From Lentilactobacillus parabuchneri DSM 5707 = NBRC 107865 (GTDB taxonomy: Bacteria; Bacillota; Bacilli; Lactobacillales; Lactobacillaceae), in NCBI RefSeq assembly GCF_001435315.1, contig NZ_AZGK01000001.1:249476-313475 (forward strand): a DNA stretch of 64,000 nucleotides. The letters run 5' to 3'. Below the pieces are notes generated by a model that was not told the origin of the DNA, did not search any database, and worked only from the letters and a program-made list of their open reading frames with translations. Positions within the stretch are counted from its first letter, which is position 1. Every line of letters begins with the position of its first letter. Made by a program: the position numbers and the translations under genes. Positions 58,499-64,000 of this stretch are shown here, one piece after another.

Positions 58499-58939
58499 AT
58501 GCCAGTATTGTACGTAATCGGAATCATTTTGCTGATCGGGCTGGATCAGTTGGTTAAACATTGGGTTGTCGCCTCGCTTGCTTTGGGGCAATCCTTTTCA
58601 GTCGTTGACGGGATCTTATCAATTACACGAATTAACAATACGGGTGCAGCGTGGAGTATTCTTTCCGGCCATCAATTTGTTTTCGTGATTATTGCAATTC
58701 TGGCTGCAATTTTGGTCACGTACTTTATTGTGACGTACTGGTCCAATGTGCCTTACCGAATTGGATTAGGCCTGCTGTTGGCGGGAACATTGGGTAATGT
58801 GATTGATCGGATCTTTAACAATCACGTTGTCGATATGTTCCAACTGGATTTTATTAACTTCCCAATCTTTAATTGTGCCGATATGTACCTGACCTTTGGC
58901 ATTTTAATTTTGGCGATCGCGATCATTCGCGAAAAGTAG
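58499..58939 (+). CDS. lspA: Lipoprotein signal peptidase
   Basis: Aspartyl protease that removes signal peptides from diacylglyceryl-lipoproteins. The 146-residue protein has four membrane segments, LDQLVKHWVV near 18, the family motif INNTGAAWSI near 44, and the catalytic aspartates in NVIDRIFNNHVVDMF near 100 and FNCADMYLTFGI near 123. The ribosome site is GGGGATATTTG. The next gene starts 13 bases on, the lspA-rluD order being common in Firmicutes. Confidence 0.95.
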   Translation: MPVLYVIGIILLIGLDQLVKHWVVASLALGQSFSVVDGILSITRINNTGAAWSILSGHQFVFVIIAILAAILVTYFIVTYWSNVPYRIGLGLLLAGTLGNVIDRIFNNHVVDMFQLDFINFPIFNCADMYLTFGILILAIAIIREK

Positions 58940-58952
58940 GAGGCGACTACTT

Positions 58953-59861
58953 GTGAAAAAATATACCGTCACCGACCAAACCGGGCGGCTGGATAAAGTG
59001 ATTTCCGACCTGGATACCGCCATCAGTCGCTCCCGTGCCAAATCTTTAATTGATGACGGCCGGATTCGTGTAAACGACGAGCCTGCCAAGCCAAAGTACC
59101 ATGTTCAATCGGGAGATAAAATTGTGGTGGACGACGTTTTGCCGCAGCCCATCAGTTTAACTCCTGAGGATATTCCGTTGGATATCGTTTATGAAGACAA
59201 CGATGTGATCGTTGTCAATAAACCACAGGGAATGGTGGTTCACCCATCACCGGGGCATCCTGACCACACGCTTGTCAACGCCCTGCTATTTCACAGCCCA
59301 CTTTCGACGATTAATGGCGAATTTCGCCCTGGAATCGTCCATCGGATCGATAAGGATACATCCGGGCTATTGATGGTGGCTAAAAATGATGCGGCCCACC
59401 AATTTCTGTCACAGCAACTCAAAGAACAGAAAAGCTTACGAAAGTATGTCGCACTGGTTCATGGTAGAATTGGGGAAGATTCAGGTGTGATTAATGCACC
59501 GATTGGCCGTTCGCCAAAAGATCGTAAGAAGCAAGCGATTGTTGCTGATGGGCGTCCGGCGGTCACACATTTTGAAGTTCTCGAACGATTTGCCGATTAT
59601 ACCCTGGTTAGTTGCCGCTTGGAAACGGGCCGGACACACCAAATCCGGGTCCATATGAAATATATTCATCATCCAATTGTAGGCGACCCACTCTATGGTC
59701 CCCGCAAGACCATTTCTGGGCACGGACAATTTCTGCATGCCCAAGAACTGGGATTTGAGCACCCCAAAACACATGAATTGATGATTTTTTCGGCACCATT
59801 ACCAAAGATATTTGAAGATACATTAAATAATTTACGAGTAAACAACGCTTTAGGATCTTGA
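58953..59861 (+). CDS. RluA/RluD-family pseudouridine synthase
   Basis: A 302-residue rRNA or tRNA pseudouridine synthase. An S4-like domain (about 1-75, RLDKVISDLDTAISRSRAKS) precedes the catalytic domain with NKPQGMVVHPSPGH near 90 and GIVHRIDKDTSGLLMVAKND near 127, which includes the catalytic Asp. The final motif RLETGRTHQIRVHMKYI lies near 227. The start is GTG 58953 after AGGAGGC. Its stop codon overlaps the -35 box of the next promoter. In Bacillus the equivalent gene (ylyB) also lies just before pyrR. The modified base is not predictable. Confidence 0.93.
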   Translation: MKKYTVTDQTGRLDKVISDLDTAISRSRAKSLIDDGRIRVNDEPAKPKYHVQSGDKIVVDDVLPQPISLTPEDIPLDIVYEDNDVIVVNKPQGMVVHPSPGHPDHTLVNALLFHSPLSTINGEFRPGIVHRIDKDTSGLLMVAKNDAAHQFLSQQLKEQKSLRKYVALVHGRIGEDSGVINAPIGRSPKDRKKQAIVADGRPAVTHFEVLERFADYTLVSCRLETGRTHQIRVHMKYIHHPIVGDPLYGPRKTISGHGQFLHAQELGFEHPKTHELMIFSAPLPKIFEDTLNNLRVNNALGS

Positions 59862-59886
59862 CAATCCGGCGCTGTTTTCATATTCT
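59858..59886 (+). promoter_or_regulatory. Promoter of the pyrR-carA-like-carB-like operon
   Basis: TTGACA (59858-59863), 17 bases, TATTCT (59881-59886), with a perfect -35 that overlaps the TGA stop codon of the RluD-type gene. The leader to the pyrR ATG is about 60 bases. It contains no terminator hairpin or visible PyrR-binding stem-loop, unlike typical pyr attenuators. Confidence 0.75.
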
Positions 59887-59951: not shown

Positions 59952-60485
59952 ATGGGAAAGATAATACTAGACAAAATGGCGATGCAACGCGCCTTGACAC
60001 GGATTACGTATGAAATCGTTGAAAAAAATAAGGGTGTTGAAGATTTAGTTTTGATCGGGATTAAAACCCGCGGCATTTTCTTGGCAAATCGAATTGCTGA
60101 TCGGCTTCAACAGTTGGAAAATGTCTCAATTCCCGTCGGTGAGTTGGATATTACCAACTATCGTGACGATATTGAACACGATGCGATGAGCAGCGACGTT
60201 AAAATGTCGAACAACAAAATCAACTTTTCCATTGAAGGAAAGCGGGTTATTTTAGTCGACGATGTTTTATATACCGGAAGAACGGTTCGGGCGGCTTTGT
60301 CAGCTGTTATGGATCTTGGCAGACCCAAGAGTATCAATTTAGCTGTGTTGGTTGATCGTGGCCACCGAGAATTACCAATTCGGGCAGACTTTGTTGGTAA
60401 AAACATTCCAAGTTCGCAAAAAGAAAAAATTAAAGTGTACGTATCAGAGATTGATGATAAGGATGCTGTTGAACTCATCAAATAG
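59952..60485 (+). CDS. pyrR: PyrR regulator/uracil phosphoribosyltransferase
   Basis: PyrR binds pyr mRNA in response to UMP and has weak uracil phosphoribosyltransferase activity. The 177-residue protein has the PRPP motif [20 protein letters not shown] near 97 and [20 protein letters not shown] near 130. Compared with B. subtilis PyrR, the Thr and Arg of the RNA-binding N-terminal helix are kept (ALTRITYE), while the His and Arg at 22 and 27 are Tyr and Lys. AAGGAGC precedes the ATG. It heads an operon whose next two genes are CPS-like but degenerate, and no pyrB or pyrC follows in the window. Confidence 0.93.
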
Positions 60486-60507: not shown

Positions 60508-61599
60508 ATGACGGAAAGATATTTAATTTTAGAAGATGGATCCGCATATGCTGGAAAGGCATTTGGATCGCTTGCCACCACAACGGGTGAAATTGTGGCC
60601 AACTCAACGATGAATGGGTATCAAGAAATTATCTCCAATCAAATTTATCATAACCAAATCATTGTTTTCACCCAGTCATCTATAGGAAATACCGGACTCG
60701 ACCAAAATGCGTACGAGTCCATTTTGCCGACTGCAAAAGGGGTCATTGTCCGGGAATATGAAAATCTTGCGACCGATCATTTTAAACGCATATCGTTAGA
60801 CCGTTATTTAAAGCAACATAAGATTCCTGGCATCTATGATGTTGATACTCGGGAAATTCGTCATCATCTTCAACGGCGGGGCAATATGAAAGCCAGTATT
60901 GTGGATGTTGCCGATGATCATGCTTTTGACCAGCTTCATGCCACGGTGCTGACAAATCAGCAGGTGGCTCAAGTTGCCACGCCCAAGCCATTTCCCAACC
61001 CGGATGAGGGTGCAAACGTTGTTGTGGTCGATTTTGGCTTAAAGAGCGGGATTTTACGCGAATTATCCCATCGTAACTGCAACGTGACCGTCGTCCCGTG
61101 GAATTTTACCTCCGAGCAGATCCTTGATCTTGATCCGGATGGAATTGTGTTGTCAACCGGTCCTGGTTCACCCGCCAATCTGCCGCAATCTGTATTAACA
61201 ATGATTACCGAAGTCCAGACTCAAGCGCCGTTATTTGCAATTGGTTTGGGCCATGAATTGTTTGCATTAGCCAATAATGCCAAAGTTTATAAATTAGCTG
61301 TTGAGCACCATGGCAGCAACCATCCGATCCGTGAAATCATTACCAACGAAATCTTTTTTTCTGGTCAAGAACAAGGTTACGCGGTTGATCCAAAATCCAT
61401 CGATCATGCCAGTCTATTTATTACGCATGTCGATTTAGTTAACGGAACGGTTCAAGGTCTTCGTCACCGGGATTACCCTGCTTTTTCAGTGCAGTTTTCT
61501 CCAGATGGCGCTCCCGGGCCCAAGGACAGCGTCGGCTTGTTTGATGACTTCATGGAATTCATGTCAAGAAGGAGTGACAACAATGACGATAGATATTAA
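60508..61599 (+). CDS. CarA-like protein lacking the glutaminase triad
   Basis: A 363-residue homologue over the full length of carbamoyl-phosphate synthetase small subunit: the N-terminal domain (RYLILEDGSAYAGKAFGS, IPGIYDVDTREIRHHL) and the glutaminase-fold domain (VVVDFGLKSGILRELSHRNC, GIVLSTGPGSP). The active site is replaced. Where the family has GICLGHQ this reads AIGLGHE, so the nucleophilic Cys is Gly246 and the glutamine-binding Gln is Glu250. Where it has HPEA this reads SPDG, so His and Glu are Ser331 and Asp333. QNHGF reads QEQGY. It cannot act as a normal glutaminase. It overlaps the next gene by 17 bases. Confidence 0.9.
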   Translation: MTERYLILEDGSAYAGKAFGSLATTTGEIVANSTMNGYQEIISNQIYHNQIIVFTQSSIGNTGLDQNAYESILPTAKGVIVREYENLATDHFKRISLDRYLKQHKIPGIYDVDTREIRHHLQRRGNMKASIVDVADDHAFDQLHATVLTNQQVAQVATPKPFPNPDEGANVVVVDFGLKSGILRELSHRNCNVTVVPWNFTSEQILDLDPDGIVLSTGPGSPANLPQSVLTMITEVQTQAPLFAIGLGHELFALANNAKVYKLAVEHHGSNHPIREIITNEIFFSGQEQGYAVDPKSIDHASLFITHVDLVNGTVQGLRHRDYPAFSVQFSPDGAPGPKDSVGLFDDFMEFMSRRSDNNDDRY

Positions 61600-64000
61600 A
61601 AAAGTTCTCCTCCTCGGCGGTGGGCCGACCAATATTGGACACGAAAACGAATTGGATGCTGCTGCATTTGAGCGGTTAATGGCCCTTAAAAAAACAGGTG
61701 CCAAAATTATTTATGTTGATAACAATCCATTTTCGGTCACCAGCGAAGAAATTCAGCCAGCGAACGTCTATGTTCAAGAAGTCAATTTTCAAAATGTGAT
61801 CAACATCATTGATAAAGAAAAGCCTGATGCCATTATGGCAACCCAGGGTGGCCTTAACGCGATGCAAATTGCTTGGCAGCTTGCGGAAAGCGGGATCCTT
61901 GCATCCAACAACATTTCCTTATTAGGGATTAAACCAGCTGATTTGAGAAAAGTCATTGATAATCAAAAGCTGCGAGATTTACTCACCGAAATTGATGAGA
62001 AAGTGATTGCGTCAAAGATTGTTGCCGATGACGACGAGGCGATGGATTTCGTTAGGGAAGTTGGCTTTCCGGTCATTGTTAAACCAATGTCGGCAAGTCA
62101 TGATACCAGCCGTTTTATTTGTAATAATACCGATGAATTGGAAGATGCCCTTGATGTCAGCTTTAAGCGGACCTATATCAAACGGTGTTCAATTGAGCAA
62201 AGCATTGTCGGCTACAAAGAAATTGAAATGGTGGGGATTCGAGACGCTAATGGCAACAAGATTTTGATTTCCGGAATGGAAGATATGGATCCGATTGGGA
62301 TTCATTCCGGCGATTCGATTATTTTTGCGCCCACGCAAACTTTAATTAACGAGGAATACCAGGCGCTTCGGACTGCAACCTTTAGAATTATGGATGCACT
62401 CAATGTCACTGGGACTTGCCATGTGCAATTTGCCCAGAGTCGAACGGATGCGAATTACTTTGTAACCAAAGTGAGTCCGTTTTTCACGCGGAATACTATT
62501 TTAGCTGCCAAGTCGACAGGCTATCCCTTAACGTACGTGTCGAGTTTTTTGGAGTTGGGGTATAATCTTACCGAAATCAAATTACCAAGCAAATACAGCA
62601 AGTTTTTAGCCTTTATGGAGCCGACTATGGACCACGTGGTCGTTAAGATCCCACTATGGCCATTTCGAGACATTACCGACGTCGATCAACATTTGAATAC
62701 TTTGATGAAATCCGTGGGATCAACCATTGGGGTGGGCCGCACGGTTGAAGAAGCGATTATTAAAGCAATGCACAGTTCCCAATTTTCACCACGGGACATT
62801 TTGCCAAGTGTTTCTAAAGTCAATGATGATGACGTCATCAATCAACTGATTCATCCGTTGGCGAGTCGGATTCTGATTTTAATGGAAGCACTTCGGCGGG
62901 GATTTTCGATTGATGAATTATCTGAATTAACTCAAATTGATCGGTTCTACTTTTACAAATTAAATCAATTGCTGCGCGCTCAAGACTATGTGGTTAACAA
63001 TCCGTTGTCGCCACAATCAGTTGAAATCGGGCATAAATACGGTTTTGGTGATGGTATGCTGGCCGAACTTTGGCAAGTGAATATTTCAACCATTCAGCGC
63101 ATGAATCATAATGTCAAAAATCAAGTCACTTACAAAGCCATTGAACCAAGTGCTGGTGAATTCATGGAAGCAACCAATATTTTCTATAGCAGCTACGAAC
63201 TCGAAAATGAAAGTAAGCCGTTTGCTGAAAAAAGTGCATTGGTGATTGGTCGTGGGGGCAATCAACTGGGCCCCAACTCAGCAGCGGATTATTATACTGC
63301 TCAGGTATTGATTTCGCTTCATAAAGCTGGTTACAAAACCATTATTATGAATACCAATCCAAACGCGGTGTCATTGACGCCCCAGTTGAGTGATAAAGAA
63401 TATATCGAACCGATTCAGCTTGGAAATATTTTAAACATTGTCGATTTAGAGAAGCCGGACATTGTATTTTTGCCTGGCAACCGGCACTATTTATCTGAAC
63501 AGCTCAAACAATTTGAAGATTTGAATATTGTGGTGTTGCCGCCAGACCAGAAGGTTGCTACATACAACCAAAAAAAGGCGACGACCGCCGTCGATCTCTT
63601 TATTGAAGGAGATGAAGTCTTGCCAGTTGCAACCATTTCTTTTGTTGGCAAGGATCAACGCACTGATTTGCGACTCATTAATGACTACAAAGAACCGATG
63701 GATCATTGGCAAACCGATGAGGCTGATTTAATCGCTGATGCGGTAAAAAAGGTCGATTCCAGCAAATGGCAGGGACTCGTCCAAATATTGTATAATACAA
63801 CTGGTGATTCAAACTACGAGATGACCGGTATTCGGCCCGTTAGAATTACAGAAACGGCTTTTTTAACCAAGACGACTGGAATTAATTGGGTCCGTGTGTT
63901 GGTGCGAAAGTATTTGGGTATTTTGGATATGAAGTCACTTCGAGAGCAACTGACGCCAACGCAACATCAACGCTCTTCGACGATGATTGCCAAATTTCCG
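61583..64000 (+). CDS. CarB-like protein with degenerate ATP-grasp sites (partial)
   Basis: 806 codons are open to the window end; the gene continues. It begins KKVLLLGGGPTNIGHENELD after AAGAAGGAG and follows CarB through GYKEIEMVGIRD, GIHSGDSIIFAPTQTL, HVQFAQ and MKSVGSTIGVGRT. In the first ATP-grasp fold, however, the loop RPSFTMGGSGGG is replaced by KPMSASHDTSRF (from Lys167), Glu208 by Gln206, and the metal-binding Glu299, Asn301 and Arg303 by Lys296, Ser298 and Phe300. The second half starts near 552 (LVIGRGGNQLG). It lacks most of the ATP-grasp A-subdomain and has GIRPV in place of EVNPR near 749. Catalysis seems impossible. Confidence 0.88.
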   Translation, partial: MTIDIKKVLLLGGGPTNIGHENELDAAAFERLMALKKTGAKIIYVDNNPFSVTSEEIQPANVYVQEVNFQNVINIIDKEKPDAIMATQGGLNAMQIAWQLAESGILASNNISLLGIKPADLRKVIDNQKLRDLLTEIDEKVIASKIVADDDEAMDFVREVGFPVIVKPMSASHDTSRFICNNTDELEDALDVSFKRTYIKRCSIEQSIVGYKEIEMVGIRDANGNKILISGMEDMDPIGIHSGDSIIFAPTQTLINEEYQALRTATFRIMDALNVTGTCHVQFAQSRTDANYFVTKVSPFFTRNTILAAKSTGYPLTYVSSFLELGYNLTEIKLPSKYSKFLAFMEPTMDHVVVKIPLWPFRDITDVDQHLNTLMKSVGSTIGVGRTVEEAIIKAMHSSQFSPRDILPSVSKVNDDDVINQLIHPLASRILILMEALRRGFSIDELSELTQIDRFYFYKLNQLLRAQDYVVNNPLSPQSVEIGHKYGFGDGMLAELWQVNISTIQRMNHNVKNQVTYKAIEPSAGEFMEATNIFYSSYELENESKPFAEKSALVIGRGGNQLGPNSAADYYTAQVLISLHKAGYKTIIMNTNPNAVSLTPQLSDKEYIEPIQLGNILNIVDLEKPDIVFLPGNRHYLSEQLKQFEDLNIVVLPPDQKVATYNQKKATTAVDLFIEGDEVLPVATISFVGKDQRTDLRLINDYKEPMDHWQTDEADLIADAVKKVDSSKWQGLVQILYNTTGDSNYEMTGIRPVRITETAFLTKTTGINWVRVLVRKYLGILDMKSLREQLTPTQHQRSSTMIAKFP

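Follow-up and report, generated by a model that had tools for sequence, protein, structure and literature searches.

A conserved and catalytically dismantled carbamoyl phosphate synthetase pair beside PyrR in Lactobacillaceae

Results and discussion

The window analysed here (64,000 nucleotides of contig NZ_AZGK01000001.1 of Lentilactobacillus parabuchneri DSM 5707, the source genome) ends in a tight run of three genes, in which pyrR is followed by homologues of the small and large subunits of carbamoyl phosphate synthetase (CPS), named carA′ and carB′ here, that form a catalytically dismantled and conserved CPS pair. The pyrR gene (59952..60485 (+), 177 aa) is separated by 22 nt from carA′ (60508..61599 (+), 363 aa), which overlaps by 17 nt the last gene of the run, carB′ (61583..64000 (+), continuing to the window-equivalent position 64087; 834 aa). 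The evidence tips towards CarA′ and CarB′ being a non-enzymatic CPS heterodimer, descended from the carAB genes of a pyr operon, that serves as an accessory of PyrR or its regulon. Regulatory dead paralogues are already known; the element that appears new is a complete dead CPS heterodimer with PyrR, which occurs in roughly half of the lactobacilli genera sampled.

The large subunit

A sequence-only reading of the window had described carB′ as a CarB homologue that has lost the glycine-rich loop and metal ligands of its first ATP-grasp domain (D1), and alignment with E. coli CarB bears this out (the E. coli numbers that name active-site residues below are presumed, and the positions themselves come from the alignment). 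In D1 the glycine-rich loop RPSFTMGGSGGG has become KPMSASHDTSRF (62081..62119 (+), residues 167-179, including a near-invariant Arg177), the metal site (62468..62482 (+), residues 296-300) has Lys296 for Glu299, Ser298 for Asn301 and Phe300 for Arg303, and Arg129 has become Asn127; Glu215, Gly241-Ile242-His243 and Gln285 are retained. The second ATP-grasp domain (D2), judged by the same reading to be short by about 70-90 residues, lacks 83 alignment columns, and its EVNPR motif is indeed replaced by GIRPV (63827..63841 (+), by alignment). The frame is open from the ATG at 61583 to the window end, 806 codons as had been counted, with a stop 87 bases further, and the motifs GIHSGDS, HVQFA and MKSVG are all present, as had also been noted. 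CarB′ thus does not have two intact ATP-grasp sites with glycine-rich loops and E-x-N-P-R motifs, and its score of 546.6 bits against TIGR01369 falls below the curated cut-off of 1027 bits. The oligomerisation domain D3 (PF02787; 62843..63073 (+), residues 421-497) is kept. An AlphaFold2 model of the first 806 amino acids (43-row alignment; predicted local distance difference test score, pLDDT, 85.6) has the overall CarB fold: its best matches in the Protein Data Bank (PDB) are CPS, with a template modelling score of 0.88 over the query to 1jdb_B, followed by biotin carboxylase and other ATP-grasp carboxylases.

The region that binds UMP and ornithine in CarB had been expected beyond the window, and a UMP- or ligand-sensing pseudo-enzyme had been proposed. 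The gene stops 28 codons past the window, and the C-terminal MGS (UMP/ornithine) domain is absent from the full-length protein, for which Pfam reports D1, D2 and D3 only, apart from lower-scoring hits to related ATP-grasp models; a canonical Pediococcus CarB, searched likewise as a positive control, does show MGS. A profile built from 15 members likewise spans just 833 positions. Because the domain is missing, the idea of CarB′ as a sensor of UMP or ornithine through its C-terminus is unsupported and was rejected; the part of the proposal that stands, and strongly, is that of a conserved pseudo-enzyme. The source genome also carries the second, intact carAB whose presence the sequence-only reading had left to be looked for (contig C5). 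A separate observation concerns the canonical CarB encoded there (L009:11362-14424, 1021 aa), which has no Pfam MGS match at an E-value of 0.001; its allosteric control may have been lost or changed.

The small subunit

By its residues carA′ is dead too, which had been overlooked, as had the PyrR with intact motifs that the pair follows. In alignment, Gly246 (61243..61245 (+)) replaces the glutaminase nucleophile Cys269 and Ser331 (61498..61500 (+)) replaces the catalytic His353. The nucleophile is glycine in 46 of the 46 main-clade rows (L042 and L173 being one gene), and the histidine is lost in all 46 (to serine in 22, phenylalanine in 21 and leucine in 3); among 26 rows of canonical CarA, 25 have the cysteine and L103 does not (L045 and L160 being one gene). 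Gln273 has become glutamate in 42/46 rows and Asn311 is retained in none of the 46; these two residues are presumably glutamine contacts of CarA, and their loss opposes the reading of CarA′ as a glutamine sensor. The CPSase_sm_chain domain is kept according to Pfam, and an AlphaFold2 model reaches a pLDDT of 78.8, weaker than that of CarB′. CarA′ passes both TIGR01368 (352.8 bits, cut-off 307.35) and PRK12838 (404.2 bits, cut-off 221), and automatic annotation would therefore call it carA; a curated model that passes it as a CPS subunit can lead metabolic modelling astray for species without CPS. The exceptional row L103, from Allobacillus halotolerans, is a CarA with Cys changed to Gly and His to Gln, accompanied by a full-length CarB and surrounded by pyr genes; it is possibly part of an ammonia-dependent CPS.

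Constraint on the pair

In a residue audit of 26 main-clade members, picked to avoid near-copies, the replacements are nearly uniform: Gly179 of CarB is arginine in 25/26, Glu299 is lysine or arginine in 26/26, and Arg303 is tyrosine or phenylalanine in 26/26. Of the retained D1 residues, Glu215 and Gly241 are kept in all 26, His243 in 24 and Gln285 in 21. In CarA′ both the change of Cys to Gly and that of a canonical Glu to Gln are fixed in 26/26. Such changes look like remodelling rather than drift.

The ratio of nonsynonymous to synonymous substitution (dN/dS) is 0.013-0.039 in the unsaturated pairs of the source genus (four for CarA′, one for CarB′). Saturation of dS makes the absolute values of this measure weak; PyrR gave 14 usable pairs, canonical CarB 11 and canonical CarA five. 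Compared within one set of 16 genomes, CarA′ has a lower dN than canonical CarA in all 120 of the 120 pairs (medians 0.081 vs 0.128). Judged from these substitutions, the pair is under purifying selection, with strong constraint in the source genus. Catalytic residues are lost with fold and purifying selection kept, as in a regulatory pseudo-enzyme. A pseudogene, a frameshift, chance and an assembly error were each rejected as explanations of carB′, given its conservation across genomes and its constraint; the signs that the sequence-only reading had named as refuting its proposal, a want of conserved relatives together with frameshifts downstream, were looked for and neither was found.

Distribution and origin

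The carB′ gene is present in 24 of 24 genomes of the source genus at 63-100% identity, with carA′ and pyrR upstream in each. By score against a profile of 833 positions built from 15 members, 174 of the 301 Lactobacillaceae genomes in the sample carry it, in 21 of 40 genera, a carrier being defined by a best E-value below 1e-220 (the weakest is 4.0e-224 in G073, whose locus was read as L170; the best non-carrier is 1.2e-209); some of the 174 carriers were also read as sequence. Genera with the gene are nearly saturated (174/176 genomes), and of the two assemblies without it one is 76% complete and the other 7% contaminated. Among the best 80 loci of a scan of genome contigs, at least 12 are carA′-carB′ loci, all 12 in the order pyrR-carA′-carB′ (the audit covered these 12 and part of the other 68). 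Carriers among the matches listed include Secundilactobacillus oryzae, Secundilactobacillus malefermentans, Levilactobacillus lindianensis, Fructilactobacillus sanfranciscensis, Periweissella ghanensis, Furfurilactobacillus siliginis, Pediococcus acidilactici, three Weissella, Fructobacillus durionis and one uncultured Lactobacillus. Of 395 genomes sampled across the order, for which the share of other families is not listed, 38 match at an E-value of 1e-212, and all of these belong to Lactobacillaceae.

The main dead clade forms one group in trees of CarB (33 rows) and of CarA (30 rows), each with a Shimodaira-Hasegawa-like approximate likelihood ratio of 99. In other genera the same place after lspA, rluD and pyrR is occupied by pyrB, pyrC, carA and carB (L160, L161, L164, L165, L166, L176), which suggests that carA′-carB′ descended from the carAB of an lspA-rluD-pyrR-pyrB-pyrC-carA-carB operon. 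Further dead forms of the large subunit stand at the same locus, of 802 aa (g4, g9), 661 aa (g10) and 643 aa (one g39 genome), and two g38 genomes have a 1054-aa form with the D2 motifs destroyed and D1 canonical at 17 of 17 audited residues; all seven rows of these forms have the CarA change of Cys to Gly. A common origin for all Gly-CarA forms (main clade, g38, g39, g4 and g9) received a borderline p of 0.0438 in an approximately unbiased test that left out L177 (g10) and L103. The g38 form (L162 and L175, from G066 and G102) is PyrR-linked with a dead CarA, has a weak MGS match in L162, and is a possible bicarbonate-half enzyme by its residues. The most decayed locus, L177 (G032, g10), encodes the 661-aa CarB-like protein, a CarA-like protein of 355 aa and a PyrR that is shortened and changed in its motifs, in the same order.

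Independence from canonical CPS

A second CarB match was found in 138 of the 174 carriers and a single match in 36. When those 36 and an additional genome, G020, were searched directly with canonical CarB, fragments appeared in G065 and G205 and nothing in the other 35, so that 34 of the 174 carriers, as well as G020, have no canonical CarB by this search. These CPS-less carriers keep carB′ together with a PyrR. Thirteen of the 34 belong to g32, the group that includes Levilactobacillus lindianensis, and make up 13 of its 14 genomes; five genomes of the source genus without carAB are also without pyrB. In CPS-less genomes, 29 PyrR leader loci were read. The open reading frames (ORFs) after most of them are what we take to be uracil permeases, NCS1 transporters or a nucleoside deoxyribosyltransferase, and single leaders precede what are presumably upp, pyrE, pyrF, a pyrB-like gene, a possible MFS transporter and an ABC-type binding protein. 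Permease and salvage genes thus follow most of these leaders. The pair, retained in genomes without CPS, goes with PyrR rather than with carbamoyl phosphate synthesis.

Two genomes show further states of the pathway. G236 (g6) has a PyrR leader before a pyrB-like ORF, yet no canonical CarB was found in it. In G023 of the source genus (assembly 83% complete, 7% contaminated), pyrB is split with a TGA and canonical carB is in pieces, while carB′ has an open frame; the de novo route may have been lost there recently.

Association with PyrR and proposed role

PyrR adjoins carA′-carB′ in 45 of the 51 distinct loci inspected, the 45 being 24 of the source genus, the 12 of the contig scan, L043, L044, L046, L168-L172 and L208 (L209 and L049 are 100% identical over 8001 bases and count once). 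The PyrR of the source genome, which scores 267.5 bits against NF003548 (cut-off 218), has an intact phosphoribosyl pyrophosphate loop and other conserved motifs and is the sole PyrR match in that genome; all 15 source-genus genomes in the family sample have exactly one. The 11 genomes that lack a PyrR match (E-value 1e-25) all lie outside the 174 carriers (Fisher p 5.8e-5, relatedness not corrected for).

CarA′ and CarB′ would no longer make carbamoyl phosphate, would still pair, and might alter the reading of RNA leaders by PyrR. Either an anionic ligand, new to the protein, or a contact with another protein would likely be read in the remodelled pocket of D1 (Arg177, Lys296, Tyr/Phe300 and His280); alternatively, the pair might be a structural partner without a ligand. 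The response to UMP would lie with PyrR and not with CarB; the pair would presumably contact PyrR directly, and might sense a ligand. The loss of Arg303, which we take to align with the bicarbonate-binding arginine of biotin carboxylase, speaks against a plain bicarbonate sensor, and the loss of the presumed glutamine-contact residues of CarA speaks against glutamine.

Several observations weigh against an accessory role with PyrR. Adjacency to pyrR is also expected from simple descent from the old operon. The six loci without an adjacent PyrR all belong to genus g3 (L042, which is the same gene as L173, and L203-L207), where all six genomes examined have the pair apart from pyrR and a single PyrR before pyrB. 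Seven of the 11 PyrR-less genomes come from one genus. Distance correlation gave no signal of covariation specific to PyrR (carB-pyrR 0.91 vs carB-rqcH 0.96), and just three weakly diagnostic positions set the PyrR of this operon apart from other PyrRs. No PyrR leader was matched in the CPS-less G020 and G104. Finally, CarB′ is the faster evolving of the two large subunits, with a median dN of 0.157 against 0.094 for canonical CarB.

The faster evolution of CarB′ would also suit a functionless relic that is being lost, as would the further decay of other lineages at the same locus (the 802-, 661- and 643-aa forms) and a TAG inside the match of the carrier G205, a fragmented assembly. However, with one or two exceptions the listed matches have open frames (the TAA of G030 falls only in its longer carB′ match, and the shorter match has no stop), and the strong constraint and lineage-specific near-invariant residues make a relic scarcely credible. 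The near fixation of new D1 residues across genera, together with the retained Glu215, Gly241, His243 and Gln285, could instead mean that the remodelled pocket catalyses a different reaction. No replacement catalytic set was recognised in CarB′, and ATP-grasp-type Mg-ATP chemistry is unlikely because the metal glutamate has become basic and the glycine-rich loop is gone; a new enzyme is accordingly improbable. The retained D3 oligomerisation and CPSase_sm_chain domains, and the second CarB match in 138/174 carriers, would allow CarA′ and CarB′ to join oligomers of canonical CarAB as subunits that modify its activity. This is very improbable, and as a general role was rejected, since 34/174 carriers, including 13/14 in g32, have no canonical CarB match.

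A less remote account, though still a doubtful one, is that the pair binds CO2, bicarbonate or a derived anion and so lets PyrR2 tune pyr transcription. It would fit the response of PyrR1 and PyrR2 of Lactiplantibacillus plantarum to inorganic carbon stated in PMC3582564, the position of a second PyrR before carA′-carB′ in g55, and the g38 form, in which CarA and D2 are dead and D1, the bicarbonate half, is canonical at every audited residue. Against it stand the replacement of Arg303 by Tyr or Phe in every audited member of the main clade, and the persistence of the pair without carAB and pyrB, where the supply of carbon to CPS is moot. The broader claim that a whole CPS has become a dedicated metabolite sensor for PyrR, such that in Lactiplantibacillus the pair and not PyrR2 alone gives the carbon response, is likewise tentative and rather unlikely; if it were true, the published pyrR2 phenotype would need re-reading.

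Relation to L. plantarum PyrR2 and other systems

Two g55 genomes have two PyrRs each, 62.6 and 63.2% identical, one before pyrB-pyrC and the other before carA′-carB′. The former matches the pyrR1-B-C-Aa1-Ab1-D-F-E operon of L. plantarum as given in PMC6044075. In that species pyrR2 is lp_1782 and pyrR1 is lp_2704, according to PMC7911632, and pyrimidines and inorganic carbon are the signals named for both PyrR1 and PyrR2 in PMC3582564, which cites a 2006 paper whose title says as much. The g55 group is probably Lactiplantibacillus, and L. plantarum PyrR2 very probably heads a pyrR-carA′-carB′ operon: the lp_1782 locus is alike in being that of a second PyrR, and the non-pyrB PyrR of g55 stands directly before carA′-carB′, whereas the published passages name PyrR2 alone with no dead CPS beside it. 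If PyrR2 does head this operon, its reported carbon response belongs to an operon with a dead CPS as the other two genes, and the pair is a concrete molecular candidate for the CO2 response of the pyrimidine genes of L. plantarum.

Biotin carboxylase and other ATP-grasp carboxylases share the ATP-grasp architecture of CarB′. Enzymes of the biotin carboxylase type keep the metal and bicarbonate residues, in contrast to CarB′, which is without them. CPS1 is an active, ammonia-dependent enzyme in which the glutaminase nucleophile is lost and both ATP-grasp sites are kept; it thus resembles carA′ in the loss of the nucleophile from a retained CarA-like domain and differs from the pair in its ATP-grasp sites. 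CarAB itself (TIGR01368, TIGR01369; PDB 1jdb, 1bxr) is alike in fold, in the order of D1 to D3, in the order carA-carB and in its pyr-operon position elsewhere, whereas carA′ and carB′ lack the glutaminase Cys and His, the ATP and metal residues of D1, much of D2 and all of MGS. A literature search, which most subscription papers lay outside, returned no dead CPS heterodimer tied to PyrR.

Neighbouring features and regulatory signals

Upstream of pyrR are lspA (58499..58939 (+)) and an rluD-type pseudouridine synthase gene (58953..59861 (+)), both in the same place in many relatives. A promoter-like TTGACA-17-TATTCT, a consensus match only, lies over the end of rluD, 5′ of pyrR (59858..59886 (+); L008 3334-3362); the promoter scan overall gave eight sites against a shuffle mean of 10.9, which is no excess. 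The RF00515 PyrR-binding leader was not found in L008 2300-5100 at E-values up to 1, nor at the gathering score in eight other loci, a strict test because many leaders of the source genus score below the gathering score; the single leader of the source genome above the Rfam cut-off stands upstream of pyrB. Directly 3′ of carB′, before a convergent rqcH-like gene, an inverted repeat followed by a run of T's was seen by eye, at a place unlisted by the terminator scan. Farther downstream, beyond the window, is a tetrahydrofolate (THF) riboswitch (L008:10875-10989), as likewise in L049 and L050.

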